NCBI GenBank assembly: GCA_949825065.1 | Contig: OX463846.1 | Span: 947,778-1,011,777 of the forward strand | Length of the DNA stretch: 64,000 nt | Direction: 5' to 3' | From: Odontocerum albicorne | Lineage: Eukaryota; Arthropoda; Insecta; Trichoptera; Odontoceridae | Part shown: positions 2,731 through 62,635 of the stretch, piece after piece | How positions within the stretch are numbered: the stretch's first letter is position 1 | How the letters are laid out: every line of letters starts with the position of its first letter | Position numbers and translations under genes: made by a program | The notes under the pieces: generated by a model | The model's database searches: none | What the model saw: only the letters and a program-made list of their open reading frames with translations | Told to the model about the DNA's origin: nothing

Positions 2731-3995
2731 TCGTAATCATGGAAGTTAACCATGTATAATAATAGCAAAGACTTTGAAGTATAATTTTAATGTTATTAAT
2801 TTGGTTCTCTCAGGAAATATCTATTATTTTCCTTTTCGTACTCCCGACGACTCCCCCCCCCCCCTCCTTCATATTTCACAACGACCTATAGGCTAAGAAG
2901 CGATTGGTTAGCTGCTTAGTGCGAATATATTGGTTTCAAGATGCCTGAAATAAAAAAAACTTCCATAAAATGCAACATCTGCGACTTATGCGTCTTCTGC
3001 AAAAAGAATACTTTAAGCAGAGAGACATTCAAATTATAGGCAACCTCTATTTCTGTCAGATAGCCAACATTAAGAATGGAGGGGTCAGTGAGGAGATTTA
3101 AATTAGACGTGATATTAGACAAGGGTGCATTTCGGTAATGAAACATTCAAATAGTATTTCGTTTTGTATGTTCAAGTAGAAAAAATAAAACAAATGAAAA
3201 AAATTAGATGCAGCCATAGAAATTGTTACGAAATATTGTAGTTTCCACTATAAATTACTTAATTTCTGGATAATACTCGTATTATGAAAATAAGACAAGT
3301 TGTGGCTTATCATACAATGGAATTTTGATCCAAAGGGGGCTAAGGGAAAAGGCTTTCGTTTTAAAGAGACAAAGGAAAATTCTATGATGAAACCCATGAT
3401 ATATACACACCTTAAGAGATCTTTACGTTTACTTTGTAAGTTGATCCCTTTTCTTAAGGACATCAGCGCAATTGGGAACGAGAAATACCGATCCCTTGTG
3501 ATATTTAATATAAACAAGACGTGCTTTCTCGTCTTTGATTGGGAGACCTACACAAATAGAAGTTCTTATCTCTAAGTTAAGTTAATTGAAAGTCCTCGAA
3601 TAATGGTGAGTTTCAAAACCAATAAAGGTGCGGTATTGATGTATTTTAAATATTTACATTTACTGATTGTTTGATCTGAAAAAGCCGTGATATCTAAATA
3701 TTTACGTAGGTGTTACAAGGAATACTCGACGAAACGTCCTAGAGACAAAATTAACATCCATGCAAACTCATACTATTTCACTTTCTTTTAGGGAAATATC
3801 AAGATTTTCTGTAAATATTATTCTTGTATGGAGTAATGAAGTGAGAGTGTTAGTAAGAAAAGAAACTTTGTTTAAAGTTACATTTATTTATAATAATTCA
3901 AAGGAAGATAAAAATTAAAGGACAATTCCAAGTAGTTTTACATGGGGTGGTCCAATTATAAGTGCCGGAACATTTTGAAAGGCCGAAGGTCGGCT
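2731..3995. other. Unassigned sequence
   Basis: Contains a run of 12 C (2853-2864) and overlapping unrecognised frames of about 90 codons on both strands at 3248-3575. Neither frame has family features or a plausible exon context. An isolated TACTCGTA word lies at 3274-3281. Confidence 0.4.
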
Positions 3996-4003
3996 GCCTA
4001 GAA

Positions 4004-4278
4004 CAGGGGTCGGCAAACTACGGCCCGCGAGCTAAGAATAGATTTTACAATTACATTTTTTTTAATTTCAAATTACGCGCTATAACAGAACGGTCCATCG
4101 TTGAGTTGAGGAGTTGCGAGATACGACCGTATGTAGTGCTCATATAACTTTGCATTCGGTGGCCTCTACTGTGACGCCACGTAATTATAATTCGGCAGCA
4201 TATGAGTTTGCCTCTTGGCCCATAGAGCCGTAAATATTTATTATTTGGCCCTTTTCAAAAAATGTTTGCCGACCCCTA
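4004..4278. mobile_element. hAT-type MITE (275 bp)
   Basis: Starts CAGGGGTCGGCAAAC and ends GTTTGCCGACCCCTA, an inverted match over 15 bases with one terminal mismatch. The flanks are GCCTAGAA (3996-4003) and GTCTAGAA (4279-4286), an 8-bp target duplication with one change. The C-A-G terminus and 8-bp duplication are hallmarks of hAT transposons. The short length and lack of a transposase make it a nonautonomous copy. Confidence 0.9.
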
Positions 4279-4286
4279 GTCTAGAA

Positions 4287-5325
4287 CTTAAACCACTGAT
4301 GCATGAAGTAGCAAAATATGTCATCAGCTTCAGCAATGCGGTGGACTGAAAATTTTTATATTGTAGCCAGTTCTATTCCCAGGCGCGAGCTCTTGTTATA
4401 TTTGGCATCGTGACGGCGTGCTCTGTGATGATAACACTGGCTATATAGTATACCAGAGAGATTAACGGAAGTCTCTAGATCTTAACGCTGTCACTGGCCA
4501 ACGAGAGACGTTCGTCTATGAAAAAAGACCCAGGGTAGGTCAACCAATGTTTCTCAAGCCTCAAAGGGTCACATTTTACCCCTTCCACCACTGGATGGGA
4601 AAGTAAATCATATCACTACAAGTGACTCCTTGCATTCAACCTCGTCTACAATCTCCTGATCGAAACATCGAAATAAAATTCGAGCGAAAGTTTTTTTATA
4701 ATGAAATCATGCCCTTTTTAACAGTAGAAATTTAAAATTGTCAACCAGCTTCAAAACAGGCTGATTATTTGTGTATGGGGCTTGATATATTCCCTTAATG
4801 GGTCCTTTGTCAGGTGGCTTTCCTTATCGCAGATCCTACGGTGACCACGGTGTCATACCTGGTTGCTGGATTTTGACAACATGGATTTGTATGCAAATTA
4901 ATCTTGGTCCGAGAAAGAAAACATCCGCTTTGAATCATCAAAAATAGCTGCAAAAGCTACAGACAACAGGTATTTGCTTTCTCTAAGCTATTTAGCATTT
5001 TTATTTCTATCCCTTTAACATATCTGAACTGGCAATTCAGAAATATTGAAGAGCATGATCGAAAGACAAGACGTGTTCAGTCTAATTGATCGAGCTTTCG
5101 AGTTAAGCCTTCCTTCTACCATTCGTGAACATGCAACAACACTTCTAGATCTTTCTTAGCAAACTTAGACTAGACCACATACTCGTAGATCAACATATTA
5201 GAATATTTCATTTTTCATTGAACTTAGAACCATTTGAGTAGGCGCAGAATCGCACGTAAAGAGTCATTGAAACGAGAGTATTTTTTCTATAAGATCTCTA
5301 CTAAACTAGGTCCTTTTTCTATGCA
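4287..5325. other. Unassigned sequence
   Basis: No coding signal. A hAT-like terminal word (CAATGTTTCTCAAGCC, 4545) is present, but I found no matching inverted end. A TACTCGTA word lies at 5180-5187. Confidence 0.4.
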
Positions 5326-5329
5326 TATA

Positions 5330-5425
5330 TGTACACGTGATTCTACCTTATATTTCGAGGCTCTCTTCAGGAAGAATGACCTCAGTATATTACAAGAGCA
5401 TTATTTATGTCCAACAGGCGTCATA
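5330..5425. mobile_element. Foldback family FB2 fragment
   Basis: The FB2 arm sequence around CGAGGCTCTCTTCAGGAAGA is present, but this copy is degraded and lacks its second arm nearby. A further FB2 terminal word (CCGAAACCTTTGATGAA) lies at about 5651-5667, across the TTAGG-like repeat. Confidence 0.5.
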
Positions 5426-5487
5426 TGCCATCGGAAGTTTGTGTAGCCTATTTTTTCAAAGGGAAAAAATTAAAAAGAGGTTGTTTA

Positions 5488-5650
5488 GTATTTTATATTG
5501 TAATATAGAGTAAAAAAAGTTAGATTAGGTTAGGTTATATTGTAATATAGAGTAAAAAAAGTTAGGTTAGGTTATATTGCAATATGGAGTTTAAAAAGTT
5601 AGGTTAGGTTAGGATATATTGTAATATAATATAAAGTAAAAAAGTTAGAA
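5488..5650. repeat. Short repeat with TTAGGT tracts
   Basis: About four irregular units (37-42 bp) carry ATTGTAATATAGAGTAAAAA followed by GTTAGGTTAGGTTA. TTAGG is the usual insect telomere motif, but tracts this short occur widely inside insect chromosomes, so this is not evidence of a telomere. Confidence 0.65.
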
Positions 5651-5726
5651 CCGAAACCTTTGATGAAAAATAAATGTATATTTTTTCCTTGAACTATAAA
5701 AGTGCTAATTTCACCTTTATATAGAT

Positions 5727-5940
5727 ATGTTGTTTATAGTTAAGGCATTAACGTTGTGGAGGTTTAAATACATTGTAATTTATTTTTATCAAACACTGTT
5801 TATTCCACTTTTTTGTGACGGTATAATCCTACCGGTTTCAAGGCTTTCACCTCATCTTCAGGGGAGTGCAAGACTTGAAACCGGTAGGGTTATACCGTCA
5901 CAAAAAAAGTGGAATAAACAGTGTTTGATAAAAATAAATG
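5727..5940. mobile_element. Foldback element FB1, copy 2
   Basis: Same left end and arm as the copy at 2143. The arm from about 5790 to 5860 returns inverted from about 5872 to 5938, with almost no loop. The middle part present in copy 1 is missing, so this is an internally deleted palindrome. The 83-codon frame reading into it is a shadow. Confidence 0.75.
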
Positions 5941-6246
5941 TATATAGATATTGTTTTTTCATATGTTCTTTTCAGTGATGATATTATTCAAATAACACAT
6001 GTGACAACCTGGATGAATTTAAACAGGAATTCCTAGTTAGTAAGCCAGCAGGTCTACGGTACATAAGCATTGTATTTATTCATGATGGGGGAAAGGGAAT
6101 AAGTTATTTATATTATTATTAAATATATAAATACCTTTACAATCCCGCTGCTGTATTATTGTATATTTCCTTATAATGTAAAATAAAATAAGAAATGCCA
6201 CGTTTTTCTAACGATATACTCGCACAAATCAGTAATATACTCATGT

Positions 6247-6707
6247 CTTATTCTTCTCCCTGGCTCCATCCCAACTCACTGTCTGCGAAGACTGTTGGGG
6301 TCAGCTCTCCTCGTCCCCAGGTTGTATGCTCTTCTGTCCCGGACTACGTCCCCCAGGCCGTGCCTCTGCATTAGGTTATCTTTTTGCACCACCCATGAAT
6401 TATTTGGTATTCCTCTGGTTGTTATTCGAGGAAGATCCATGAAGATTGCCTAGTTCACAATGTGATCGGGTGCTCTGTGTCCAACTTACCTATACCATCT
6501 CAATCGCCTCTCCTCCATCTTGCTGTTGATGTCTGTAAAACCTAGGCTTCCACGAATGCGTGAGCTTTTTATTTTGTCTCTAAGGGACACACCAGTTGAC
6601 CATCTTAACAGGCGCATTTCAGCAGTTTCTACTATAGTTGCCTAGAGTAAGAGTTATACATCGTCCAGCATTCGGAGCCATAGAGGAGTGCGGGTCTGAC
6701 AATTGTT
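6247..6707 (-). mobile_element. LINE-A, 5'-truncated copy with target duplication
   Basis: Minus-strand 3' end of a non-LTR retrotransposon: the same C-terminal reverse transcriptase region and 3' end (reading GGAGCCAGGGAGAAGAA) as the plus-strand copy at 13865-14596. It is flanked by a perfect 16-bp direct repeat, AGTAATATACTCATGT, at 6231-6246 and 6708-6723. A truncated 5' end plus a long target duplication is the signature of target-primed reverse transcription. The reading frame is broken. Confidence 0.9.
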
Positions 6708-6757
6708 AGTAATATACTCATGTAAAATAAATAAATAAATGTTTAATATAACATAGG

Positions 6758-7040
6758 CTACAGTAATATCCGAATTGTCCGAAAGTTTTGTTACGTATAC
6801 TCGTATAGCCTACAGTAATATCCGAATTGTCCGAAAGTTTTGTTAGGTATACTCGTATAGCCTACAGTAATATACGAATTGTTCGAAAGTTTTGTTAGGT
6901 ATACTCGTATAGCCTACAGTAATATCCGAATTGTTCGAAAGTTTTGTTAGGTATACTCGTATAGCCTACAGTAATATCCGAATTGTTCGAAAGTTTTCTT
7001 AGGTATACTCGTATAGCCTACAGTAATATCCGAATTGTCC
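6758..7040. repeat. 52-bp minisatellite carrying TACTCGTA
   Basis: Units begin CTACAGTAATATCCGAATTG at 6758, 6810, 6862, 6914, 6966 and 7018 (partial), about 5.4 copies. Each complete unit contains TACTCGTA (first at 6798-6805), the same 8-bp word that is scattered through the window. Confidence 0.9.
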
Positions 7041-7511
7041 TATCTTTGATTATTCGACATTCCGGACTATCCGTATGTAGTCGAAATATAAAAACATAAT
7101 ATGTAACATCAACTTGAAGAACAAACTGATTTCATAATTAAGTTTACCTAAATACTATAATTCTCTCTTTATCCATTTTTATACGTAAAAATTTTTTTTT
7201 GTTAAGATAATTCTTTAAGCTGTTTATTATTTTCTATGTAAAGTACATACTATGTGAAAATGTATTTCGGTTTAGTAGGCACATGTTTTTAAGTAATAAA
7301 ACAAAGCGTTTTCAGTTTAATAACTTGTTTCCGGCAGTTCCGGACCTGTCATTCTCGGTTATCCGACCTTACCGCAATCTCGTTTACGTTGGATAATCAG
7401 ACTCAACTGTAATGTTATTTAAGAATACGTATTGTATAATTAATAAAGAAACGTGAATTAAATTTTAAATATCCTGTTTAGAGCACATAATTCGCTTTAA
7501 TTACTTCAAAC
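7041..7511. other. Unassigned sequence
   Basis: AT-rich, with no open frame, repeat or transposon end that I can support. Confidence 0.4.
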
Positions 7512-7832
7512 CTCCTAGTAATAGAGTATTTCCTCATTGAAACAAAACTCCTATTAATAGAGTATTTCCTCATTGAAACAAAACTCCTAGTAATAGAGTA
7601 TTTCCTCATTGAAACAAAACTCCTAGTAATAGAGTATTTCCTCATTGAAACAAAACTCCTAGTAATAGAGTATTTCCTCATTGAAACAAAACTCCTAGTA
7701 ATAGAGTATTTCCTCATTGAAACAAAACTCCTAGTAATAGAGTATTTCCTCATTGAAACAAAACTCCTAGTAATCGAGTATTTCCTCATTGAAACAAAAC
7801 TCCTAGAAATGGAATATTTCCTCATTGAAAAC
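7512..7832. repeat. 36-bp minisatellite
   Basis: About nine units of CTCCTAGTAATAGAGTATTT plus 16 bases, starting at 7512 and 7548, with changes concentrated in the last copies. Because 36 is divisible by three, the minus strand stays open for 140 codons (a 12-residue repeat). This is an artefact and not a gene. Confidence 0.9.
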
Positions 7833-8152
7833 AAAATATTGTACTCGGAAAATAGAATAGTTTGTGATTCGAATTGAAATTTGTTTACCGACGAGTACAA
7901 TAGTTTGTTTTGTGTTCGAATATATAAAGTAAATACAGGAAAGGTAAAAAGGCTAAACGCTTGGAGGGAATGGCCGGCGATACTTTAAGGACGTGATGTT
8001 TTCCATTGGCCTTTCACCCGGTGATATTTTATTAACTGGAAGAATCCACAAATGGTTAAAGGACTTTTTGACTATTTTCATATTTTTTTTTAAATTCGCT
8101 TGACTTTTTTGTTCTTGGATTTTGAAAGATCTATTTTCATCACTTCTTATTG

Positions 8153-8240
8153 TGTAAATGTACAAGTGGTGTGTAAATGTACAGTATTGTGTAAATGTAC
8201 AGTATTGTGTAAATGTACAGTAGTGTGTAAATGTATAATA
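8153..8240. repeat. 18-bp tandem repeat
   Basis: Five copies of GTGTAAATGTACAGTATT with small changes. Confidence 0.85.
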
Positions 8241-8369
8241 CAAGTGGTTAAATGACCATCAAAAATTTTGATCTTAGTTTATCGAAGTGTCAAATCGTAT
8301 AAAAGTTTTTTTTTAAATACTGTCTATTGGTAATGAAATTTAAAACCGTTTAATAAGCGTACATTTATT

Positions 8370-8640: not shown

Positions 8641-9092
8641 TATATACGAGTACAACACAACTTCCCGAGCTTATTTCTATATATACGAGTACAACACAAC
8701 CTTCCGAGCTTATTTCTATATACACGAGTACAACACAACCTTCCGAGCTTATTTCTATATATACGAGTACAACACAACCTTCCGAGCTTATTTCTATATA
8801 CACGAGTTTAACACAACTTTCCGAGCTTATTTCTATATATACGAGTACAACACAACCTTCCGAGCTTATTTCTATATACACGAGTTTAACACAACTTTCC
8901 GAGCTTATTTCTATATATACGAGTACAACACAACTTTCCGAGCTTATTTCTATATACTATATACGAGTACAACACAACCTCCCGAGCCACAACCTTCTAT
9001 ATACTATATACGAGTACAACACAACCTTCCGAGCTTATTTCTATATACTATATACGAGTACAACACAACCTTCCGAGCTTATTTCTATATTT
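8641..9092. repeat. 39-bp minisatellite with TACGAGTA
   Basis: About 11 units contain ACGAGTACAACACAACCTTC then GAGCTTATTTCTATAT. The period is 39 bp (8646 to 8685). The last units are longer because ACTATATACG-type bases are inserted. Many units carry TACGAGTA and others carry CACGAGTTT, which may be its decayed form. The 13-residue repeat frame on the minus strand is an artefact. Confidence 0.9.
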
Positions 9093-10859: not shown

Positions 10860-11060
10860 TTCGCGTGATATTTTGAAAGAACGAAATGTAAAGAGTCAAA
10901 GAAATCGTAACAGCTGTGTGAGAAGGTTGCTACAGAAAAGGGACACGTGGTAGGAGGTTGGGTAATATCGACCTGATGAACAGATACGAGTATATGATGA
11001 TGGAGACCCGATCCTTTAAGAATGCGGAGATGAATAGATGAAAGTATTATTTAAAATGAT
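10860..11060 (+). mobile_element. LINE-C 3' fragment (degraded)
   Basis: Short tract reading about RNVKSQRNRNSCVRRLL, with a downstream AGAAGGTTGC-type sequence. It resembles the C-terminal region seen better in the LINE-C fragments at 22180-22960. Very decayed. A TACGAGTA word lies at 10985-10992. Confidence 0.35.
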
Positions 11061-11410: not shown

Positions 11411-11992
11411 TTTTAAAAATATATGAGCGAGACTTATGCCAAATTTTCTACCTAACCCTCATGGAAGATGGCCGGTGGTATGGAAATGAAACACTTAAAT
11501 AGAATTAAAACTTTAGAACTAACAAGACAAAGTATTCTTATATTTAAAATAAATGAACTAATTTATTTAGCGTAGCTCTAGACACCGCCATTCAACAATA
11601 TTCATTTTAAATTATACTCGTATATTGAAACGTTTCAAGTCGTGTTATCAACCATTTAATTCATAATTTGTGTGTTCAACATTTTCTACTTGTTACATAA
11701 AATATAAAACTTAAAAGGGTTCGTGTTGTTTCTAACAGGAAAAAATAATGAAATAGACACAAGTTTGAAACTTTCACGGTTAATCATGATATTGGTATTA
11801 AATGTTAATTATACAATTACTTAACGCGCTATTGCTGGGAAGGCTTTGCGTGATCATGTAAGGAACACCACAATCCGAGAGGTCTGTGAGGTCCAAGATG
11901 TGGTCAGATGAGGACGACAGCGTCGACGATACAGGTACTAACATGTACAGAGAATGAATTCCATAAGAATTCCATACATAGCTCTGCATGGG
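11411..11992. other. Unassigned sequence
   Basis: No coding signal. TACTCGTA lies at 11615-11622. The tract from about 11820 leads into a LINE fragment and may be its degraded upstream part. Confidence 0.35.
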
Positions 11993-15264: not shown

Positions 15265-16252
15265 AAGAATAAAAAAAGACTTATATAGCGACGTTTAGAT
15301 AGCACGAAAAAATTATATATGGTAGCGACGTTTAGATAGCACGAAAAATTTATATAGCGACGTTTAGAGAGCAAACTCCTCAAGAGTACTCGAACTCAGG
15401 ACTAAACCCACTATTATTCTTCCGTGGTTGCAGTCCTAAGACTGGTTTGCAGCAATTTGAACTCTTCTCCTCCATTCCCCCCTGTCCTGTACGGCTCTTT
15501 TTAAGTCTGTGTATGTTGAGCAGCGCACGTCCACCAACAGGTCCTCCAGGTACTCTCGGCGTGGGCGTCCCCTAGAGTTTGTCCCCTCGGTCATGCCCTC
15601 CATTATGGCATGCAAGAGGCCCTCTTGTCGTATTATATGACCGATCCATCTTGCACGCCTTTCGGACAGGATCCTGAGCAGGTGCCTTCCTCCTTCGATT
15701 CGTTGGAGAACCTCTTCATTTGTGATGCGGTCTCTCCAGGAAATTCCTAATAGTCTTCTATAGGACCACATCTCAAAAGCCTCTAGTCTTCGTCTATCTC
15801 TTTCGGATAGGCACCATGTCTCGCAGCCGTTCATCAAGATACTCCATACATAGGTCTTGATGAGGAGTATTCTCAGTTTAAGGTCTATATTATTTGATTC
15901 TATTATTTTCGACCTTTTATTAAATGCAAGTCTAGCCTGATGTATACGGCTGTCGACCTCGCTCTTGGACCGACCGTCCCATGTTATTTTGCTCCCGAGG
16001 TAGACAAACTCCTTATTATTAACAGATTATAAATACAATACAATAAATGTGTATAAGTTGGGTGTAATGATAGGAAGGTGGGGACTATGGCCAATAAATT
16101 TGGTTATTTCCCACATCTGAATATCTTCGGAAAAACATATATGGTAATAACATCACAGAAAATGTATTAAGTGAAGACGAACTACAAAGAAACCTTTGTA
16201 GATCTTCCGATATATGATATTAACACATTCGGCTTTAGGTGTAGTGTGTAGA
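15265..16252 (-). mobile_element. SINE2 copy split by LINE-E
   Basis: SINE2 occupies 15265-15418 and 16013-16252. Read on the minus strand, it runs from a segment ending GATCTTCCGATATATGA to one near TATATAGCGACGTTTAGA. In better copies a B-box-like GGTTCGAATCCCG suggests tRNA origin. The LINE-E fragment (15419-16012) interrupts it, with TATTATT on both sides as a probable target duplication. Part of the left piece is locally triplicated (GCGACGTTTAGATAGCAC at about 15290-15370). Confidence 0.7.
15419..16012 (-). mobile_element. LINE-E 3' fragment, copy 1
   Basis: Minus-strand C-terminal part of a LINE polyprotein. An open stretch reads CETWCLSERDRRRLEAFE, RRLLGISWRDRITNEEVLQR, RARWIGHIIRQEGLL and GTNSRGRPRREYLEDLL. 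These are the post-palm 'YGCETW', 'ISWxDRxTNEEVL', 'RWIGHxxR' and 'GRPRxEY' blocks common to many insect LINEs. It ends near the CCGTGGTTGCAG (minus CTGCAACCACGG) 3' end shared with the copy at 38675. It is 5'-truncated and sits within SINE2. Confidence 0.85.
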
Positions 16253-19030: not shown

Positions 19031-19652
19031 CTCAAAACAAACTGTTATATATGTTATAATAAACTCATCCCAAATATCGCACATACTCGTACATCTCAAA
19101 ACAAACTGTTATATATGTTATAATAAACTCATCCCAAGTATCGCACATACATTTCAAAACAAACTGTTCTATATGTTATAATAAACTCATCCCAAGTATC
19201 GCTTATACTCGTACATCTCAAAACAAACTGTTATAATAAACTCATCCCAAGTATTGCACATACTCGTACATCTCAAAACAAACTGTTTACATCTCAAAAC
19301 AAACTGTTATATATGTTATAATAAACTCATCCCAAGTATTGCACATACGAGTACATCTCAAAACAAACTGTTATAATAAACTCATCCCAAGTATTGCACA
19401 TACTCGTACATCTCAAAACAAACTGTTTACATCTCAAAACAAACTGTTATATATGTTATAATAAACTCATCCCAAGTATCGCTTATACTCGTACATCTCA
19501 AAACAAACTGTTATAATAAACTCATCCCAAGTATTGCACATACTCGTACATCTCAAAACAAACTGTTTACATCTCAAAACAAACTGTTATATATGTTATA
19601 ATAAACTCATCCCAAGTATTGCACATACGAGTACATCTCAAAACAAACTGTT
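18985..19652. repeat. 58/64-bp array with presence/absence of a 6-bp insert
   Basis: The basic unit runs GTTATATATGTTATAATAAA, CTCATCCCAAGTATCGCACA, then TACATCTCAAAACAAACT (58 bp). In many units the TA before CATCTC is replaced by TACTCGTA or TACGAGTA (64 bp). Shortened units and a 21-bp piece are mixed in. A block of 280 bp is repeated (landmarks at 19201 and 19481, and at 19341 and 19621), so there is a higher-order repeat. Confidence 0.9.
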
Positions 19653-20485: not shown

Positions 20486-20544
20486 CACGAGTAATTCGTA
20501 TAAAGAATTGTACGACTCGTAAGCACTCTGTCGATAATTGGTTG

Positions 20545-25055: not shown

Positions 25056-25887
25056 TGTGTCTTAATTGATTTTAAGCCCAATTATTGTAGATTACATTAT
25101 TTAGTATTATATTTAGTATAGAAATAAGATTTTTACAAAATAATGTACGAGTATATTTTGAAGTTCACCTAATTGAAGGTTCTTGAATGCGGTCTTATTA
25201 GCTTAAAGCTTACTTAATGCGGCCTTCTAACATGAAAAGGTTCCCCTCCCCTGGTTTAAGTTCTCGTTGATCAATGTTCAGCTTGGGAAACATTTCACTA
25301 AAGAGAATAACTTAGTTAGCGATACAACACAGAACGCAAAACATTTCACTATGAAAATTTGAATTAAAATATACCCTTAAAAAAATTATTTCGCTCTCTT
25401 ACTTAAGTGTCTTTCTTTTGAAATTAATCGTATTTTTATGATAAGAGTCGAATCGCAACCGAAAAAAAAACTCAGTCGATCGATATTATATTCAAATTAT
25501 CCGAAATATTCTGTGTACATTTTTAATCTCTTCAGACCTGAATTAATTCTTAGGTTTTGAAAAATATTCTTGTTTATGAGCGCATTATTTACACTAAATG
25601 TAACATTGTGTCGTATTAGTTTAGATAGATGGCGCTCGAAACGTTCAAAGTCGATAATACAATATCGACTATTATCATTAGGAATAAAAATATACCATTA
25701 AATGGTTTACAAAGTGCATATGAAATATACATACCCATTATAATGGACGCCAGGTCTGAAGAGGCTAAGTGAACTTTTAAAACAATTTCGTGTCCGGAAC
25801 ATCTATCATGCCACGTATTTTCAGTAGGAGGTAACAAAGAAGGCAACGATCAGGTCCTGCCCAGAGCATGTAGTCCAAATTTATTTT
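25056..25887. other. Unassigned sequence
   Basis: TACGAGTA lies at 25146-25153. Short unrecognised frames only. Confidence 0.35.
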
Positions 25888-40772: not shown

Positions 40773-41631
40773 GATGCGTGAGACTCTCGCGCAGTAGAAG
40801 TGAAACTTTTTAGCTCCCTCCATAACTTGATTTTATGCATTGCTTTTTTTCCATTTGTTAACGTTTTTTTTTAGGATTAGGAAATGGTTATGTGGAATTT
40901 AATTCAAGAAAATCTCTCTTAATTAAATTAAATATGGTTATGAGGAATTTAATTTAAGAAAATCTCTCTTAATTAAATAAAAAGGTATTCTTTTTTTTAT
41001 TTTTAATAATAATAATTTTAATAATAAATAATAATATAATACACGAAATAATATTAAATTTATACTTTTTAACATTAAATATATTAATATTTTTATGTTA
41101 TTATTAATTGTTAAATTAATTATTTTTAAATAATTATTTATTTATTATTAAATTAAATTTATTATTTTATTGATAATACGAGTACATTATTAATAATATT
41201 GTTATATTATTTATTAATTATAATAAAATAATAATATAATTATTAATATTACAATAACACACATTTATTATTATAAGTATGTATTAAATATAAATTATAT
41301 ATTAAATAAATATTAAAATAAATATTAAATAAAATAAAATAATTTAATATAAAATAAAATTTATAAATGTTAAATATATATAATAATAATTTTAATAATA
41401 ATATAATATACGTAATAATATTGAAATAATATTAAATATTATTAATAATAAATAATTATTAATATTAAAATAATTAATAATAATTTATTAATAAATAAAA
41501 TGTTTAATAATAATATATAATAATTTTATAGGAATTGAATAATAATAAAATAATAATATAATACACCGTTTCACTTTTCGTGACGTTCAGGACAATTTGC
41601 CCTACCGCGCCTACCGAAGTTTCACTTCAAT
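40773..41631. mobile_element. AT-rich MITE, copy 2
   Basis: Same ends as 425-1335 (GCGTGAGACTCTCGCGCAGT at left, CGTGACGTTCAGGACAATTT and CCGAAGTTTCACTT at right) with a similarly AT-rich core. Within the core, TACGAGTA (41177-41184) stands where copy 1 has plain TA (820-821). Confidence 0.7.
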
Positions 41632-42430: not shown

Positions 42431-43100
42431 GTGATTATTTCAAATACGAGTATATACATCACATCCTGTGTGGACCCGTCTAGCCGTGATGGCACACCGA
42501 TTGTATTTATTACATATTTTTATAACTTATTTGTGAGTCTTTTGACGCTCCTTTTAGCTTAAACTCCTTAGGCAAATGCCTAGGTTTGCCTGTTTACAAG
42601 CACGACTCTGGTCATAATAGTTATTTTGTTTATTCAAAGGATGTTTCGTGTTTCTCTATCGCAACACTAAATATAAAAGGGCATCCACCATAAAACTATT
42701 GGAGAAAATAATTAACGAAGGTAAAATGGTTAGACCTTTATATGGTATAAGGTTTTGCATTCTGATTTTTTTATTTCAAGGTTCAAAACAGGAAATTTGC
42801 TCAGCTCCGTCAGTAAGGCTTTCATTTTGTGTTATTTTTTATTCAGGTTATTTTTTCAGAATTTTTAAGCTGAAGTAACATGGCACGTGTCAATGTCGAC
42901 CTTTCATTTTTCAAAAATAGGTTTTTCGAGAAATCAGATAAATGGATTAAAAGTTTACGACTTTTTTATTTTTATACGGGACATAGTCGACCTCTGTATC
43001 TTATTTGGTTTAATGTACGTCTTCCATTCCAGAAATTGCGGGTTTGACTTATTGTGTTATTCATTTTGCAAAAGAGATGTAGTCTAGTTTTCTCTTAAAG
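42431..43100. other. Unassigned sequence
   Basis: TACGAGTA at 42445-42452. Two short frames without recognisable features. Confidence 0.35.
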
Positions 43101-47035: not shown

Positions 47036-47750
47036 TTATTCAATATGGCATTGTAGTAATTTTATTTGATGTATTTTAGTAGGGGTTTGGGGTGTTAAAC
47101 AACCCCAAGTTCTTTTCAAAAGGAAATTTTAACCCGTTATAATTAATGAATTTATATAACACTTTTCAACGATGAATGGTGATTCGGACATTTTGAAGAG
47201 CGGATGGATGGAAGACATCATTGGGAGATGATATTGTCTTCAGCCTCGTTAATAAAGCCTTTGGGTTTGAAACCAGTAGAGTAGGTACATAAGTCGTCGT
47301 CGTGTGTCTTGATAATCATCCCGTTTTTGGGAGCTCTCGATAGACGTGACTTCCATTTGGATGATGCAGGACTTCAACCCCTTGTAGGCAGGCATGGAGT
47401 CATCTGTAATGCTTTTTAGGATAAATAGTCCATTTTATTCCGAAAAATTTGCTCTAGAAGCACGGACACGGACAAGTTCCAGTATATAGAATGGATGTCT
47501 CTGGAAATTCCATTAAATTTAAAATTTCCAGAAATGTTGATCAAATGTAATACAATAAGATTGATATATGTAATAATTCATTTCGCAGTTTTAATGCATC
47601 ACTAAATACACCACACAATGAATCATATACTTGATTATTCATCCTTAGATGATGTTCTCCAACCAATGAGAAGCTTACTATATAGTATATCCAGCGACGG
47701 GTGATATGTATCAAAGAGCAACAATTGCTCATTAATATTACAAATAATTC
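47036..47750. other. Unassigned sequence
   Basis: A moderately GC-rich part (47280-47420) shows no frame or element end that I recognise. Confidence 0.35.
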
Positions 47751-47754
47751 ATTA

Positions 47755-50420: not shown

Positions 50421-51055
50421 GCAATAATAATAAATGTACCGTTTAGAGCAGTGCTCCGCAACCGGTGTGCCGTGGCACACTGGTGTGCCGTGAGTCGGAT
50501 ACAGGTGTGCCGCGGTCAAATTCAATGTACGAGTATTTGACATTTTACAATTTTTCATTATGTATTTAATACACAATAACTGGTGCCAACTGTTGAAAAC
50601 TGCGTAGTGTGCTTTGTACACACCATGGCCGCACCAAATTAGTCATAGACAAAGAAAAATGACCCTTATGCGCGTCGCTGAAGACTCATGCCTAATTTAA
50701 TACCTATATATTTTAGCTTTTGGTGTGCCGCGGAATTCTAGGAAGAATTTTGGTGTGTCGTAGGTGAGAAAAGGTTGCAGAGCACTGGTTTAGAGAACAG
50801 ACTCTTCTCAAAGATGCTCATAGTCGGGATTCGAACCCATTAGTATTGACAGATTCATAAGTTAAGAGCAAGGATAGGAAGGTGGTGACTGCGGCCATCA
50901 GATAAGATATTTCCCTACATCTGCATATGTTTAGAAATATATATTTGGTAAGAAAACGGCAGAAAACTTAACAAGTGAAGATAATCTACAAAGGAACCTT
51001 TGTAAATCTTCCGATATGTGATAGAAACACATTCGGCTTTAGGTGTAATTTAGTG
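50421..51055 (-). mobile_element. SINE2 copy split by a hAT MITE
   Basis: SINE2 text at 50421-50448 and 50796-51055: GCAATAATAATAAATGTACC, then after the insertion CGGGATTCGAACCCA (50825-50839, an inverted B-box), GGATAGGAAGGTGGTGACTG and CTTCCGATATGTGATAGAAA. This is the best B-box-containing SINE2 copy in the window. Confidence 0.8.
50449..50787. mobile_element. hAT-type MITE (339 bp) with perfect target duplication
   Basis: Starts CAGTGCTCCGCAACC and ends GGTTGCAGAGCACTG (14 of 15 inverted). GTTTAGAG flanks both sides (50441-50448, 50788-50795). Subterminal GGTGTGCCG(T/C)GG motifs repeat near both ends. TACGAGTA lies inside (50528-50535). Confidence 0.95.
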
Positions 51056-51590
51056 TATTTCATTTATTTAATTAACGACACAATAGTGTATTTTATATAC
51101 AAATGAACATATGACAAGTTATACGAGTACAGTACTAAAAATTATTGATAAAAAATACAAAACTTTGTCTTAAACTAACATGGATACAAAAAGCAGTAGT
51201 AATAATAAATTACAAAGTCATTGTTTAAAATTATTTAATATTAATATGTATAACATATTTAAGTTCAATATAATGTATATCACAAAATATTACCAAGAAG
51301 ACTTACGTAATTGTCGAAGACTTGTTTTATAATGGTAAAGAACTTAGATTTGTTTTAAGTGGAACAACGCTTACATAGAACAACGATTTTTCGAGAATTT
51401 TATGGATAGATCTTGAGATATAGAAAACACATGGGCTCACTTGTAGAACGAGATGTAAGTTGCTTTGCAGAATCGAAACCTTCCACATGTTGATGCAGGG
51501 TTACTCAACTCCAGAGGCAAAGTATTTTCCTTAATGTTTCTTTTTATACTAGGTTATTTATATTAATAAAGGAGAGCACAAAGTTAGTAG
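51056..51590. other. Unassigned sequence, possibly a LINE 3' UTR
   Basis: AT-rich, with TACGAGTA at 51122-51129. It may be the untranslated end of the minus-strand LINE fragment that follows, but no boundary is clear. Confidence 0.35.
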
Positions 51591-51905: not shown

Positions 51906-52396
51906 TCACAAGCACGTAGTGAACAAATCTATTTTTAACTTGTTGGGGGGGGGGGACTTGATGAATTGGCTTTGTCTCCGCTGAAAATGGAATATGAGAT
52001 GAGCTTTCCATTAAATCAGAATGCTTTGTAGACGAACCATAATTTTCTTTCTAAATGCAATCCACCACGTCTATCCAACGGCAGCGGCATGCGCTCGGAA
52101 TTGTAAATGATTGCGGCCATTTTAATAAATTTCAAATGGTTGTGAATTTAATGCATGGAATATGGAAATTATTCCAATCAGTGCGAAAGTTTGTTTGCAT
52201 TACGTTTCACTCTGTCCTGTATTTTATACCAGATGGACAGACCTTGTGGGAATATAAAAAATAATGATTCAAAGAGATTTCAATTAAATGCGTATTTTGT
52301 TCATCACAGGTACTCGCATGAATAGCCGGCGCCAGATTATTTTGCGCCCAAAACATGGTGAGATACTTGCACTCGAAAAGAAGCCACCTTCGATTT
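51906..52396. other. Unassigned sequence
   Basis: A run of 11 G near 51945-51955. A 69-codon frame at 52055-52264 has no recognised family. Confidence 0.35.
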
Positions 52397-53640
52397 TAAG
52401 TGTATTTCAGGATTTAATTTTTGTATGTGTTTTGTCTTCTCTAATTGCATAATTCTCTTTATGTCCTGGTAAACATTAAGTGTATTTCAGGATTGAATAT
52501 TGGTATGTGTTTTGTCTTCTCTAATTGCATAATTCTCTTTATGTCCTGGTAAACATTAAGTGTATTTCAGGATTGAATATTGGTATGTGTTTTGTCTTCT
52601 CTAATTACATAATTCTCTGTATGTCCTGGTAAACATTAAGTGTATTTCAGGATTGAATATTGGTATGTGTTTTGTGCTCTCTAATTACATAATTCCCTTT
52701 ATGTCCTGGTAAACATTAAGTGTATTTCAGGATTGAATATTGGTATGTGTTTTGTGCTCTCTAATTACATACTCGTAATTCCCTTTATGTCCTCGCAAAC
52801 ATTAAGTGTATTTCAGGATTGAATTTTTGTATGTGTTTTGTCTTCTCTAATTACATAATTATCTTTATTTCCTCGCAAACATTAAGTGTATTTCAGGATT
52901 GAATATTGGTATGTATTTTGTCTTCTCTAATTTCATAATTCCCTTTTTGTCCTCGCAAATATTAAGTGTATTTCAGGATTGAATATTGGTGTGTGTTTTT
53001 TCTTCTCTAATTACATAATTCCCTTTATGTCCTCGCAAACATTAAGTGTATTTCAGGATTGAATATTGGTATGTATTATGTCTTCTCTAATTACATAATT
53101 CCCTTTATATCCTGGAAAACATTAAGTGTATTTCAGAATTGAATACTGGTGTGTATTTTGTCTTCTCTAATTGAAGAGTAAAACTTATAAACCACATAAC
53201 AACCATGTTTTTTTACTTTTCATTTTTTGTGGAAAAACAGTCGATCAACAAGCGATAATATACCCATAAATGGCATATAACATATGTGAACTATAAAAAT
53301 AGTTTTATACAATTTGTATGTTTTTTTATTTTTCACAAATAAAACGTTTTAGTAGAAAATGTGCAGTTTTTTCTTATAACTGTTTACATATTTTTTGGCT
53401 CTTGAGGGGTTTATGAATTTAACTCTTCAATTACATAATTCCCTTTGTACCCTAGCAAATATTAAGTATATTTCAGGATTGAATATTATTATGTGTTTTG
53501 TTTCACTCATTTAATTATTAAGTCCTAGAAAGGCATTAGATATTTTTTCATTATTTGATACAAGTATTTGTTTTGTTTCCACTTTAAATCTAAGACATTA
53601 GATATTTTTCAGGATTGAATATTCGTGCGTGTTTTATCTT
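52397..53640. repeat. 80-bp minisatellite, interrupted by a MITE
   Basis: About ten units of ATTAAGTGTATTTCAGGATT, GAATATTGGTATGTGTTTTG, TCTTCTCTAATTACATAATT, CCCTTTATGTCCTGGTAAAC (80 bp: 52475, 52555) to 53172. It continues, diverged, from 53429 to about 53640. One unit carries TACTCGTA (52770-52777) where its neighbours have TA. Confidence 0.92.
53173..53428. mobile_element. MITE with AATT target duplication inside the 80-bp array
   Basis: Starts GAAGAGTAAAACTTATAAACC and ends GGTTTATGAATTTAACTCTTC, inverted with a few changes. AATT is present on both sides (53169-53172, 53429-53432). The neighbouring array units give the empty site CTCTAATTACATAATT, which is exactly restored when the element and one AATT are removed. 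The superfamily is not clear. Confidence 0.85.
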
Positions 53641-55095: not shown

Positions 55096-55309
55096 AATTT
55101 GGCATTTAATTATTTTGTATTTATTAAAGTATTTTGTATACTAAAGAATTCAACGTGACAGAATGCTATTTTTTTACATACAACATTCAACCATTAGGGG
55201 ATGCGGCTCTACCACACCATCTATAGACGCCACTCCACTGATGTATATGTACGAGTATATCCGAATATTACACATATATTTGAAGTCAAAGAAAAAGAAA
55301 ATATTTTAA

Positions 55310-55800: not shown

Positions 55801-56129
55801 GAATGTAATCACACTTGTAGCATAACAGAAAATAAAATAAAAACAATTAAACTAAAGATTTCCATATGTCTCTAAAGATTGGGAAAGAGAAGGAAAATGG
55901 TAAAAGACCAAAAAATAGAAATTGTGGCGAAACATATTTCGTCATTGAAGAGAGATATAATATTTTTTAAGTCACTGTTCGAAGCAAACGAACGAGAAAT
56001 ATTTAAGAATGATTAATTAATAAGAATTCTAGATTATCGCTGAAAGTTTTCGCACAAAAATAATTGTTATCTAAATCAATCATTCAATTTTACTTTCAAG
56101 TTTTAATGTACGGCTTTAACTTAATTAAT
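55801..56129. other. Unassigned sequence
   Basis: AT-rich. Leads into the 35-bp array without a clear boundary element. Confidence 0.35.
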
Positions 56130-58615
56130 TAATCAAAGCGTTTATCAACTTTTACATAATCAATTGATTCGAACATTTATCAACTTTTACTTAATCAATT
56201 GATTCGAGAATTTATCAACTTTTATTTAATTGACTCGAGCATTTATCAACTTTAACTTAATCAATTGATTCGAGCATTTATCAACTTTTACTTAATCAAT
56301 TGATTCGAGCATTTATCAACTTTTATTTAATTGACTCGAGCATTTATCAACTTTAACTTAATCAATTGATTCGAGCATTTATCAACTTTTACTTAATCAA
56401 TTGATTCGAGCATTTATCAACTTTTACTTAATCAATTGATTCGAGCATTTATCAACTTTTATTTAATTGACTCGAGCATTTATCAACTTTAACTTAATCA
56501 ATTGATTCGAGCATTTATCAACTTTTACTTAATCAATTGATTCGAGCATTTATCAACTTTTATTTAATTGACTCGAGCATTTATCAACTTTTACATAATC
56601 AATTGACTCGAGCATTTATCAACTTTAACTTAATCAATTGATTCGAGCATTTATCAACTTTTACTTAATTGATTCGAGCATTTATCAACTTATACTTAAT
56701 TAATTGATTCGAGCATTTATCAACTTTTACTTAATCAATTGATTCGAGCATTTATCAACTTTTACTTAATCAATTGATTCGAGCATTTATCAACTTTTAC
56801 TTAATTGATTCGAGCATTTATCAACTTTTACTTAATTAATTGATTCGAGCATTTATCAACTTTTACTTAATCAATTGATTCGAGCATATATCAACTTTTA
56901 CTTAATCAATTGATTCGAGCATTTATCAACTTTTACATAATCAATTGATTCGAGCATTTATCAACTTTTACTTAATCAATTGATTCGAGCATTTATCAAC
57001 TTTTACTTAATCAATTGATTCGAGCATTTATCAACTTTTACTTAATCAATTGATTCGAGCATTTATCAACTTTTACTTAATCAATTGATTGGAGCATTTA
57101 TCAACTTTTACTTAATTAATTGATTCGAGCATTTATCAACTTTTACTTAATCAATTTATTCGAGCATTTATCAACTTTTACTTATCAATTGATTCGAGCA
57201 TTTATCAACTTTTACTTAATCAATTGATTCGAGCATTTATCAACCTTTACTTAATTGATTCGAGCATTTATCAACTTTTACTTAATCAATTGATTCGAGC
57301 ATATATCAACTTTTACTTAATCAATTGATTCGAGCATTTATCAACTTTTACTTAATCAATTGATTCGAGAATTTATCAACTTTTATTTAATTGACTCGAG
57401 CATTTATCAACTTTAACTTAATCAATTGATTCGAGCATTTATCAACTTTTACTTAATCAATTGATTCGAGCATTTATCAACTTTTATTTAATTGACTCGA
57501 GCATTTATCAACTTTAACTTAATCAATTGATTCGAGCATTTATCAACTTTTACTCAATCAATTGATTCGAGCATTTATCAACTTTTATTTAATTGACTCG
57601 AGCATTTATCAACTTTAACTTAATCAATTGATTCGAGCATTTATCAACTTTTACTTAATCAATTGATTCGAGCATTTATCAACTTTTATTTAATTGACTC
57701 GAGCATTTATCAACTTTTACAAAATCAATTGACTCGAGCATTTATCAACTTTAACTTAATCAATTGATTCGAGCATTTATCAACTTTTACTTAATTGATT
57801 CGAGCATTTATCAACTTATACTTAATTAATTGATTCGAGCATTTATCAACTTTTACTTAATCAATTGATTCGAGCATTTATCAACTTTTACTTAATCAAT
57901 TGATTCGAGCATTTATCAATTTTTACTTAATTGATTCGAGCATTTATCAACTTTTACTTAATTAATTGATTCGAGCATTTATCAACTTTTACTTAATCAA
58001 TTGATTCGAGCATATATCAACTTTTACTTAATCAATTGATTCGAGCATTTATCAACTTTTACATAATCAATTGATTCGAGCATTTATCAACTTTTACTTA
58101 ATCAATTGATTCGAGCATTTATCAACTTTTACTTAATCAATTGATTCGAGCATTTATCAACTTTTACTTAATCAATTGATTCGAGCATTTATCAACTTTT
58201 ACTTAATCAATTGATTCGAGCATTTATCAACTTTTACTTAATTAATTGATTCGAGCATTTATCAACTTTTACTTAATTGATTCGAGCATTTATCAACTTT
58301 TACTTAATCAATTGATTCGAGCATATATCAACTTTTACTTAATCAATTGATTCGAGCATTTATCAACTTTTACTTAATCAATTGATTCGAGCATTTATCA
58401 ACTTTTACTTAATTGATTCGAGCATTTATCAACTTATACTTAATTAATTGATTCGAGCATTTATCAACTTTTACTTAATCAATTGATTCGAGCATTTATC
58501 AACTTTTACTTAATCAATTGATTCGAGCATTTATCAACTTTTACATAATCAATTGATTCGAACATTTATCAACTTTTACATAATCAATTGATTCGAACAT
58601 TTATCAACTTTTCAT
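56130..58615. repeat. 35-bp satellite with a 1.13-kb segmental duplication
   Basis: About 72 units of ATTGATTCGAGCATTTATCA plus ACTTTTACTTAATCA, with shorter 30-31-bp forms lacking TCAA. Rare variants recur 1126 bp apart (GCATATATC at 56885 and 58011; CTTATACTT at 56689 and 57815), so a block of about 32 units was duplicated in one step. Both ends carry GAACATTTATC variants. Confidence 0.93.
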
Positions 58616-59325: not shown

Positions 59326-59430
59326 GTTGTCCCAAATAAATCTATACACACATTGAATCACTATAAATTCAGTGTTTATAAAGGTCTAAATGTTTTTCAG
59401 CTATTACGAGTAGTTCCTCTTCAACTTTTT
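59326..59430. mobile_element. Mariner-like terminal fragment
   Basis: TACAGGTTGTCCCAAATAAA followed by CTATAAATTCAGTGTTTATA, parallel to the left end of the element at 60282. It is cut by LINE-B. Confidence 0.55.
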
Positions 59431-59432
59431 AT

Positions 59433-60230
59433 TTTACACTTTTATTACAAATACAATCTGGCGGGGCTGCAGGCGGCAATCTCTTCCAAACCAACTAGAC
59501 AAAAGTAAATGAAGCAAGTTACGTGGTCGCAAAAATCATTCAAATGACTATCCATCCCCACGAAATCCATAAATACATACGTGAGCGTACGTACACCCAT
59601 GAACCCCACAAAGACGGACAATCACCCGAAGATTATTATTCATATAAAGTGAGATATCATCAATCAAAAGGTAAGGAAGGGATGGTGGAGAGGAAAGGAA
59701 AAGAAAAATCAGGAATGAAACACGTTATTTTACTGACTAGAAATTAAGAGTGTTTTTCAGTCGCTTCTTAAAGCATGCCAAGAATTATTGGTTTGTAACT
59801 GATTCCAGAGTCTCACTACATGGGCATTATAAAGGACGACGTTAAAAAAGAGGAGCGGTGAACAGGAAAGACCAGTAGACAATCTCTGTTTGAGCGTAGC
59901 GCTAATCCATGATTGGAAAGACGCTTAAATAAATCGTTGACATAAGAGGGGGTGACGGGACAGTTAAGGATATTATACAATAAATACAATATGTGAATTT
60001 GGCGTCTATTTCTAATATTCAACCAGTTCAATGCCTTCTGGTATGAAGTAACATGATCGCACTTTCATAGGCTGAAAATAAATCTTAGACACACATTTTG
60101 AAGACGCTGTAATTTGCCCAGCTGTTCCTCTGTAACATCCAAGTAACATACGTCCGCATAGTCCAGAATTGGAAAGAGCAGAGATATGTACTCGTACAGA
60201 CAATGAAAATAAATAATACAAACAAATTTC
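59433..60230 (-). mobile_element. LINE-B, longest fragment here
   Basis: Minus strand, with two frame changes: LLFPILDYADVCYLDVTEEQ, LGKLQRLQNVCLRFIF, LNWLNIRNRRQIHILYLLYN, LSNHGLALRSNRDCLL, FPVHRSSFL, then the LKKLLISSQ end and the 3' UTR with the CCCGCCAGATTGTATTTG tail at 59447-59464 (slightly rearranged). This covers the region after the catalytic palm of a CR1/Jockey-like reverse transcriptase. TACTCGTA at 60190-60197 adds six bases in frame. Confidence 0.85.
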
Positions 60231-60281
60231 AAAAAAAAATAATCATTGAACATTGTATGATAGGCTATGGGCAATTAATTA

Positions 60282-60803
60282 TACAGAATGTCCCAAATAA
60301 AATGACACAATGTAAATTACTATAAATTCAACATTTACTAATGTATATCTAAAATTAATACTTCAAATAAAGAAGACATGCGTTGATTTTTTCTAGTTAT
60401 CGCAAATGCTCAAATGCATGGCAGTTCTGATCAATGCACTGCTGACAACGTTAAATCGCAAACATTAGGAATTATTTGTTTTGTTATTTGGGCGTATTCT
60501 CTCTCAATTCATCAACTGTTTCATGAACTTTATATTTGACGAGTCCCCATAAAATGTCCAGTACCGTTATGTCAAATGTTTCAATGCTATCAAATCCATC
60601 TGTTTAGTAAACTTTCATCAAGACATGATGGCGCGTCTCTCCACTACATCACGATGGTAGTGGAGAGATGCGCCATCTTTCAGGAAATAAAAGTCCTTTT
60701 CATCCCTAAACTCCTCACGTGGTACTCGTATGACGAATTCCTGTTGCAAGTTCAAGGAAACGGCACTGTGTAAAAGTGTTTATACATTTTTGGACACCCT
60801 TTA
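60282..60803 (-). mobile_element. Decayed mariner/DUF4817-type transposon
   Basis: Ends TACAGAATGTCCCAAATAAA and (inverted) TTTGGACACCCTTTAC. Minus-strand frames keep ILWGLVKYKVHETVDELREN and CHAFEHLR, the 'DFFLWGxxKxxVY...LDELxxxI...xxxHxEHL' end of a Tc1/mariner-related transposase. Stops are frequent and the catalytic core is missing. It may be the same family as the N-terminal remnant at 29790. Confidence 0.65.
60627..60677. other. Strong hairpin
   Basis: GATGGCGCGTCTCTCCACTAC (60627-60647) is inverted at 60657-60677 with one mismatch, around a 9-base loop. It lies inside the mariner-like element and on its side without terminal repeats. It probably arose by a local inverted duplication. 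Confidence 0.8.
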
Positions 60804-60805
60804 CA

Positions 60806-61574
60806 TTTGTTACACGCTTTTAAAATATTATATCTTCTTATTACAAAAAATCGTTGAGATTCAAATTCAAAATTCACAGCGATAATATCGGAGTTTACAA
60901 TATTTTCGATTCGTAGATTTTATAATATTGTGGAAACAATTTTACAATATGTCCACATTAAAGGTAATGCTGTCATGATGTACAAATATATTATATTAAA
61001 TTTAATATCGTCGTGCGAAGTGCAAACTATACAATCTCAACATTGCCACATTTACGAGTATATAGTCGGCGCCCCAAGGCAGTTGCCAACTTAAATATTA
61101 TTATTGATATTCCCCTTTAAATACGCAATTTGAACAATATTTATTTTTTTACATTTAGTTTTTAATTGTATAGCAAGATATCTAATGAAACTGTAGAAAA
61201 ACTTTAAAATGTTTTTGGTTGGATATCCGATTTCATCTATATTTTTTTTATTTTAAATGGTTTCAATAAAACAGTCAAATCTATCAAAGAAAATAAATAA
61301 AATAATAGACAAGACGAATTATTTTCTGGAAAATCAATTAATTTACATATATCATATATATTTAGTCCATGTATGTTATACTTGTAAAGGTGGTACTTGT
61401 AAAAAATAGATTGAATTTAATTAAAATGGGTGGCAATCAAAATATATTTCTGCCTAAATCAAATATTCTGAAATGACGATAAATCAAGGATTAAAACTTT
61501 CAGTCGGCTCTGATTTATGGACTTTTCATATTACACAACCGGAATGGATTCCAAGCTTTAATCCTAGGTTTATA
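60806..61574. other. Unassigned sequence
   Basis: TACGAGTA at 61053-61060, followed by a GC-rich CGGCGCCCCAAGGC word that may be a transposon edge. Nothing else. Confidence 0.35.
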
Positions 61575-61725
61575 TGACTTACCGACAGATGTGGCGACCC
61601 CCCACAGCCTGGTGAAGGGCTCCAAAAAGTCCCATAAGATCATGCAGGAGCCATCCCCGTACCTCCAAAATCCGGAAGCCTTTCGATCCATGTTAGAATT
61701 GCTTTTACATCAAATCTCACAAAGT
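61575..61725 (+). other. GC-richer open segment, possible exon
   Basis: An island of higher GC in very AT-rich surroundings. One plus frame reads VKGSKKSHKIMQEPSPYLQN and PEAFRSMLELLLHQ. A CCGACAG preceding 61590 could be an acceptor, but it lacks a pyrimidine tract, and no clear donor ends the segment. The family is not recognised. It may be an exon of a real gene, or a transposon piece. Confidence 0.25.
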
Positions 61726-62635
61726 TTTTATTACTTCACCATTTTAATTGATAAACGAACATATAACATTATCAATTTAATCACTTTTTTGTTTTTTTTT
61801 TTTTTTTGTTGATTGTCTAATATTTTTTCATGTAAATTAATTAATATTTTCTTGATTTAGTTTTTTTTTGACACAGCAAAAACACTTTTATGAAAACTAT
61901 TTTGTTTACATTTTAACTTTATAGCACTTATTATTGTTTAATTTATACATAATGTTTTATTTAGTTATATTTAAAACTTAAACTCACATTGTTTCAACGA
62001 TTGATATCACTTTATCATCTTAATTAAAAACATTTACATTTTAATTAGATTTTGCGATAAAAGCGGACAAAATTAATGGTAAGCGTTTATGAGAGAGTAA
62101 AGATGGGAAACTGATAAGAGACTGAGGGTGAAAGAGGAAACAAAGTTATGGAGTGTTCAACAATTTCGTAACATTTTTACAACAGGCGCTACTTTTGTTT
62201 TCTACTTGAAAAGGCGTCAATTTTTTCCCTTTGATAAAGCTCAAGGGAGAGAACAGCAAGGAAAATAACCGTTAAATTTAATGTTGTGTGAATTGTAAAA
62301 GTTATTCGTGTCTTCGTTACAAAATGATTTGCTGTTGTGTAACACGATGGTTATATATTTTAGTATAGAGGGAAAAAATATATCAAAATATTATGCTTAA
62401 AATATTTTCATATGCAATGTCTTTAATATCGTTGATATAATACGAGTATTATAAAATCTGCTCGAGGGAAACGATTTCTTTTCTAGAAATTCTACTTAGA
62501 ATAAAACATGTATTTATTTACGCATTATGACGCGCTGACGGTTAATGTTAGAGCTTACTCGCATACGTGTGTGTAATATTTGTAATAGATTCGTTTGTGC
62601 CAAACTTGTATTATTATTCTTTTATGTATATGTTT
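61726..62635. other. Unassigned sequence
   Basis: Strongly AT-rich, with T-runs near 61790-61810. TACGAGTA at 62441-62448. No supported gene. Confidence 0.35.

Follow-up and report, generated by a model that had tools for sequence, protein, structure and literature searches.

An eight-base word scattered through the window

The window analyzed here is a 64-kb stretch of DNA (64,000 nucleotides) from the trichopteran Odontocerum albicorne (contig OX463846.1 of assembly GCA_949825065.1, positions 947,778 to 1,011,777 of the forward strand), through which an 8-bp word, TACTCGTA, and its reverse complement, TACGAGTA, are scattered. As set out below, the word is most likely a scar left by the excision of mariner transposons. 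The window holds 37 exact copies, 17 of TACTCGTA and 20 of TACGAGTA, where background models of first, second and third order predict 1.7, 2.6 and 3.4, respectively, for the two together. A preliminary description of this DNA had listed 16 single copies and three arrays; all are present, with the single copy placed at 60190 now at 60189 and the start of the third array moved from 19085 to 19084.

Most of the single copies were located by exact match. Those reading TACTCGTA, on the forward strand, occupy 3274..3281, 5180..5187, 11615..11622, 60189..60196 and 60723..60730, and those reading TACGAGTA, assigned to the reverse strand, occupy 10985..10992, 25146..25153, 41177..41184 (in AT-rich surroundings), 42445..42452, 55250..55257, 59405..59412, 61053..61060 and 62441..62448. 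The remaining three have empty relatives in alignments: two reverse-strand copies of TACGAGTA, at 50528..50535 and 51122..51129, and one copy of TACTCGTA, at 52770, in a single unit of an 80-bp array on the forward strand (52396..53172).

The three arrays contain five, eight and eight exact copies. The first has TACTCGTA once per 52-bp unit of a minisatellite (6798..7013, forward strand, within an array spanning 6753-7040), which is probably one scar multiplied with its array. The second has eight copies of TACGAGTA in a 39-bp array at 8641-9090 (8645..9060, reverse strand), whose remaining units read CACGAGTA or CACGAGTT. In the third (19084..19633, no strand assigned), one and the same site reads TACTCGTA in six units and TACGAGTA in two (19346 and 19626), while the unit at 18991-19046 has a plain TA.

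The word tops the ranking of 8-mers in the sampled DNA

Across the whole assembly (1,287,057,991 bases), there are 190,749 copies of TACTCGTA and 190,753 of TACGAGTA, that is, 381,502 together, against 15,070 and 15,081 (30,151 together) for a control in which the pattern is reversed. The word is ~13 times commoner than its control, a surplus of ~350,000 copies in a raw count that takes in copies multiplied within arrays. When 8-mers were ranked by their distinct contexts over third-order expectation, TACTCGTA with its reverse complement headed both the list of 61,443 from 254 kb (73 against 7.3) and that of 59,580 from the 190 kb that remain without the window (48 against 4.3). That same 190 kb has 61 occurrences of the word, whereas each of the 11 alternative arrangements of C, T, C and G between two TA dinucleotides is found 1-16 times.

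To estimate independent events we turned to 19 loci, each 10 kb long and placed at round coordinates, that come from seven contigs and exclude the window (L-numbers denote loci fetched from the same assembly and C-numbers its contigs, the window lying on C11). Their 61 copies represent 43 independent flank contexts, which, less a background of ~4 in 190 kb, correspond to ~263,000 dispersed scars genome-wide (Poisson range ~183,000-365,000). The excess seen in the window thus extends to the genome, holds against both a Markov background and permutations of the word, and is not confined to a few duplicated families. Some samples used below (those for single-mutant, footprint-length and donor-flank counts) take in the window as well as loci retrieved for other words; the 8-mer ranking and the context count outside the window are the cleaner figures. 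A literature search for the word itself listed matches that were unrelated by title, and a paper on the bamboo element Ppmar2 contains TACTCGTA, there within a mutated end sequence and not as a scar (PMC6696609).

Related sequences carry a plain TA in place of the word

We compared 123 occurrences of the word, in ~290 kb, with that same DNA by BLASTN. Of 326 alignments that span a scar, mostly within arrays, 226 show the word too, oriented alike or oppositely. At seven sites (one a weak case), the relative has a plain TA and the word is 6 bp longer, which bears out the earlier impression that the two alternate and extends it to sites beyond those first noticed, including L027:751 and L031:1022 outside the window. 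The single 80-bp unit with TACTCGTA at 52770 is matched by TA in eight other alignments of that unit, and in the array at 19084-19633 TA, TACTCGTA and TACGAGTA are all found at one position. As for dispersed relatives, the copy at 50528 has a counterpart at L012:8789-8921 that is 91% identical and exactly 6 bp shorter, and the copy at 51122 has one at L002:2492-2677 (85% identical) that lacks 6 bp and has one substitution adjoining the gap, as well as a more distant one in L004 (76%) that aligns with 5 bp missing. At L027:751, three neighbors have TA and a fourth has TATAGTA; at L031:1022, two relatives (in L011 and L001) have TA and a further one in L001 has TT. The weak pair is L030:555 and its relative in L015, at 67% identity. 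An array at L006:9-1065 has units with TACTCGTA, TACTCATA or TACACATA at one site, an alternation that looks like a scar decaying inside the array; a clean empty unit was sought there by alignment and none was found.

These pairs bear on whether selection or slippage could have spread the word, as a functional binding site or as a microsatellite. Its exactness, its abundance and its slight decay would suit such an origin, as would an overlapping pair, TACTCGTACTCGTA, found at C1:25700-25713 among the first 100 genome places listed. However, the host repeats have empty TA versions, the preference around the TA is common to the word and to a resident transposon (see below), and TACTCGTACTCGTA does not occur at all in a 300-kb sample. 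We give this explanation next to no credence.

A mariner outside the window has the matching ends

The preliminary description had predicted an element that targets TA, has ends beginning CTCG or CGAG and was once very active, and had proposed searching the assembly for elements bounded by TA-CGAG...CTCG-TA. Such an element exists outside the window. A scan of the sampled DNA for inverted ends starting with TACGAG or TACTCG returned three hits. Two are TACGAG...CTCGTA elements from a single family; the third, with a TACTCG start at 5180-7897 of the window and 4 mismatches in 14, looks like chance. The more complete copy, L016:1818-3154, is 1337 bp long including both TA dinucleotides and has 32-bp inverted ends (90.6% identity) and one open frame of 354 amino acids. 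The other, L010:6715-7649, is a 935-bp copy with an internal deletion, and a third member of the family, L004:9252-end, is one-ended, being cut off at the end of the locus. The left ends of L016 and L010 read TACGAGGCATATCCAGAAAG and their right ends TACGAGGCGTAGCCAGAAAG and TACGAGGCGTATCCAGAAAG, with TA at both sides, giving ends of TA-CGAGGC(A/G)TATCCAGAAAG and an overall form TA-CGAGG...CCTCG-TA. The three copies differ by 2.0-2.6% in substitutions when gaps are omitted, and their BLAST identity with gaps is 93-97%.

The protein encoded by the open frame clearly belongs with mariner transposases. It matches Pfam Transposase_1 (PF01359, 4.5e-24) and HTH_48 (PF17906, 1.1e-06), and it is homologous to the transposase of Mos1 (5.5e-48, residues 21-353), with the three catalytic aspartates aligned and 34 residues, counted by eye, between the second and the third, the DD34D spacing. 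A single TA duplication at both ends (in L010 and L016), a length of ~1.3 kb and terminal inverted repeats (TIRs) of ~28-32 bp are those of a mariner as well. Mos1 itself leaves a three-base scar, against the four bases considered here. The best 115 of 101,854 candidate transposase copies in the genome, which are not a random sample, were scored, and 84 of them have no internal stop.

Ends of this family are abundant. Allowing up to 3 mismatches, the end word TACGAGGCATATCCAGAAAG occurs 23,235 times genome-wide (control 20), a count that may include near relatives, and TACGAGGCRTATCCAGAAAGTAAG, with up to 2 mismatches in 24 bp, still occurs 20,499 times (control 0). Some 20,500 ends would amount to roughly 10,000 elements, provided that most keep both ends; among 100 listed exact-match ends, five pairs lie within 6 kb of each other, at 871-1168 bp. 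Within the window, the earlier statement that no donor is present proved right as far as searched, since neither of its two TACGAGG words continues as the donor does, and 121 mariner proteins found no match there at 1e-4.

The scars could also come from several CGAGG-ended mariner families in roughly equal shares. CGAGG ends are described as common among mariner clusters (PMC4678618, PMC5490172), the sample contains a second CGAGG-ended mariner (L001:3027-3948) and one with CGTGG/CTAGG ends (L006:3491-4397), the count at three mismatches can take in relatives, and an 8-bp scar is not assignable to one family. Against this, the two TACGAG elements of the scan and the one-ended copy in L004 are all of one family, the L001 copy has suffered a deletion and its right end is mutated, and the stricter end count remains at 20,499. 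We regard equal shares as possible but rather unlikely, and favor the one family as the chief source. Mariner copies with TTAGG-type inverted ends are also common in the sample (L006:6709-8022, L011:6017-7083 and L017:1132-2422).

The donor resembles Macrosiphinimar elements

By the sequence of its TIRs, the donor resembles the Macrosiphinimar tribe of the irritans group. The aphid members Apismar1.1 and Mpmar1.1 are DD34D mariners of 1334 bp with proteins of 354-355 residues and the TIR CGAGGCGTGTCCAGAAAGTAAGTGTACT (PMC5490172), and Rpmar33 of Rhodnius prolixus has the TIR CGAGGCATGTCCAGAAAGTAAGTGTA (PMC4678618). The donor is like them in its length of ~1.33 kb and its 354 residues, and its left end shares 26 of 28 TIR bases with the aphid sequence, as compared by eye. 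The genomes differ in scale: complete copies are given as one to six in those aphid lineages (PMC5490172) and eight for Rpmar33 (PMC4678618), in contrast to the ~20,500 ends and ~263,000 dispersed scars counted here. The term footprint has no occurrence in either paper. Among 120 listed of 1,436 homologues of the donor protein, identity reaches 94%, with 83% in the psyllid Cacopsylla and 64% in Uroleucon; partial homologues in the same list are 88% identical in the click beetle Ignelater (over 75% of the query) and 87% in the ant Pseudoatta (over 50%). Such relatives in a psyllid, an ant and a click beetle make horizontal spread a possibility, judged from protein similarity.

Two other known elements leave comparable footprints. 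Sleeping Beauty also targets TA, and end joining after its excision yields C(A/T)GTA, a TA-n-TA footprint found in either orientation; it differs from the donor in its three-base scar and in belonging to another family (PMC3878927). Minos, a Tc1-like element of Drosophila hydei, has ends that begin CGAG and leaves a 6-bp footprint (PMC10992017, PMC3386967, PMC3680223). Since it leaves 6 bp and starts with TACGAG, a four-base scar is not unheard of in the superfamily, and even its scars vary, with reported excision alleles carrying 4, 8 or 6 additional bases (PMC6980720).

A Minos-like Tc1 element would accordingly leave an identical word, its ends beginning with TA-CGAGCCCCAACC as read from a primer (PMC3680223) and its footprint having the right length (PMC10992017, PMC3386967). 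Yet Minos has another sequence after CGAG and TIRs of 255 bp (PMC10992017), and a CGAG-ended Minos was not found in our genome searches. With up to 2 mismatches its end word occurs 3,433 times against 1,861 for the control, the best among 100 places listed having one mismatch. The commonest one-mismatch form lies inside another repeat, because all four copies that were read lack an inverted partner within ~1.4 kb and three of the four, by eye, share sequence on both sides. The relatives of the Minos transposase in this genome are only 27-43% identical to it, and the top family has ends of another kind, CACT(A/G)GCGG (three flanks, two copies). We rejected Minos as the donor, its ends TACGAGCCCCAACC being absent from the end-word search and from L030-L033, and a Minos-like source of the scars appears very improbable. 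A search with DDE_3 (scores computed for 150 of 17,761 candidates) likewise yielded no donor, the three loci examined being Tc1-like with CAGACGTGG-type ends. The Tc1-like family with ends TACACT(A/G)GCGGTCATTGAAATGTACTCAG is present at C17:41.70 Mb and C1:29.08 Mb (L037-L039) and, by its match pattern, probably on C9, C37 and others; the match to its transposase is interrupted by a short gap that may be an intron.

Scar structure, target preference and age

The scar corresponds to TA, the first four bases of the donor (CGAG) and TA, in either orientation. Four-base scars occur in 101 distinct contexts against 6.5 expected. The two- or three-base footprint usual for mariners, which is not one of their defining properties, shows no clear excess here. 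In 300 kb, neither other footprint lengths nor doubled or nested forms stand out clearly, TACGAGGCTA and TACGACTCGTA occurring once each against 0.2 and 0.05 expected.

Outward from the TA, the scar flanks favor T or C, then A or T (C almost never), then T, symmetrically on both sides, so as to form a palindrome (62 independent sites). At least five of the six flank positions are matched in 52 of 101 distinct scar contexts, against 883 of 5,503 other TANNNNTA contexts. This rule was learned from the scars themselves, so that the fair test lies in the flanks of the donor: the full one-sided preference is found at 11 of 25 donor flanks (20 flanking the first exact end matches in the C1 listing and five from the sample) and at 79 of 206 scar sides, against 9,280 of 57,383, or 16%, of all TA dinucleotides.

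A few other words of the TA-n-TA form stand out. TACCAACTA/TAGTTGGTA is over-represented (13-15 distinct contexts against ~2), and its flank score of -2.77 is clearly unlike that of a scar; TACAGCGTA is over-represented too (8 against 1.3-1.5), with a slightly positive flank score (0.4). Among 106 TA-4-TA words with at least 15 contexts, TACACGTA/TACGTGTA is the only other one with a positive mean flank score; it is slightly enriched in the sampled genome (15 against 10.9) and may be the scar of elements ending in CACG or CGTG.

The scars appear little decayed and thus young, since the 24 single-mutant neighbors of the word show little surplus (189 distinct contexts against 169-191 expected), which agrees with the low divergence of the donor copies. 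The eight transitions among these neighbors number 89 against 68 expected and the sixteen transversions 100 against ~123; the decay estimated in this way is sensitive to the composition model and could be nil.

Other repeats in the window

The window is rich in minisatellites, with 96 partly overlapping Tandem Repeats Finder rows (among them 43144-46842, 56114-58612, 47750-49125 and 63042-64000); one minisatellite has a 48-bp unit repeated 77 times, with several frames open. Two pieces of one long interspersed nuclear element of the reverse-transcriptase type lie at 15436-16026 and 38694-39458, both on the reverse strand, the closest database relatives of the latter being 55-64% identical.

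Excision as the probable source of the scars

Taking the donor ends, the shared flank preference and the 6-bp pairs together, we conclude that TACTCGTA/TACGAGTA is most likely the excision scar of CGAG-ended mariners, probably chiefly of the one little-diverged DD34D family. The same evidence supports the element predicted in the preliminary description, including its four-base overhang and its past activity. On this model, the element would insert at a TA, which is duplicated, and the transposase would later cut in such a way as to leave behind, on each side, the four terminal bases of one end. The host would then join the two broken ends, with the CGAG/CTCG mismatch resolved one way or the other to give TACGAGTA or TACTCGTA, and the excised element would re-insert elsewhere. 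Both orientations and the empty state within the one array at 19 kb would fit a CGAG/CTCG heteroduplex resolved either way.

Because an excised element re-inserts elsewhere, scars would build up while copy number stays roughly level. Dividing ~263,000 dispersed scars by ~10,000 resident copies gives ~26 per copy, which would mean ~26 sealed excisions for each resident copy, a ratio that would reflect the balance of end joining and template repair, plus losses. An excess of scars over donors of ~26 to 1 might also be put down to an aberrant transposase that places the 6 bp directly, by abortive strand transfer, at sites where no full element ever resided. However, known Tc1/mariner footprints come from end joining after excision (PMC3878927), and the ratio can arise without abortive transfer, since every transposition adds a scar and keeps the number of copies level; we consider such a mechanism highly improbable.

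Several points weigh against excision of this family as the source. Excision itself is a step that we infer, and in this one assembly we saw no position at which donor, scar and empty site all occur. Overhangs in Tc1/mariner elements are given as 2-3 nucleotides in a review (PMC3878927), and the three-base form TACGATA/TATCGTA is not enriched in 300 kb (30 against 39 expected), so the donor family would have to cut one base deeper than expected. The ratio of scars to donors is high, and the raw count overstates the number of events because the word has been multiplied together with arrays. Other mariners with CGAGG or CGAGG-like ends, such as those at L001:3027-3948 and L006:3491-4397, may have made part of the scars, and the signs of scar decay are weak and model-bound.

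Implications

Most likely, the donor is a mariner that belongs to a known tribe and leaves an unusual scar of four bases, in extraordinary numbers. A literature search, by title or abstract opening, found no report of a four-base scar for a DD34D mariner, and the family is flagged as one whose cut probably departs from the usual 2-3 nucleotides. Going further, this genome may preserve a near-complete, little-decayed tally of about a quarter million four-base scars, left by a mariner whose cut lies one base further in than those of known relatives; with ~26 excisions closed by end joining per resident copy, germline mariner breaks would have been repaired almost wholly without a template, and the ratio of scars to copies would gauge repair choice together with transposition rate. 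We see the case for this wider reading as evenly balanced.

The surplus also carries a caution, as a genomic excess of an 8-mer need not mean a regulatory motif. Excision scars are normally met singly, in experiments; in the DNA sampled here the scar exceeds expectation more than any other 8-mer. One assembly could therefore yield a count of past cut-and-paste events, their target preference and the outcome of their repair, and mariner amplification, in which a break is either copied back or joined, would become countable.

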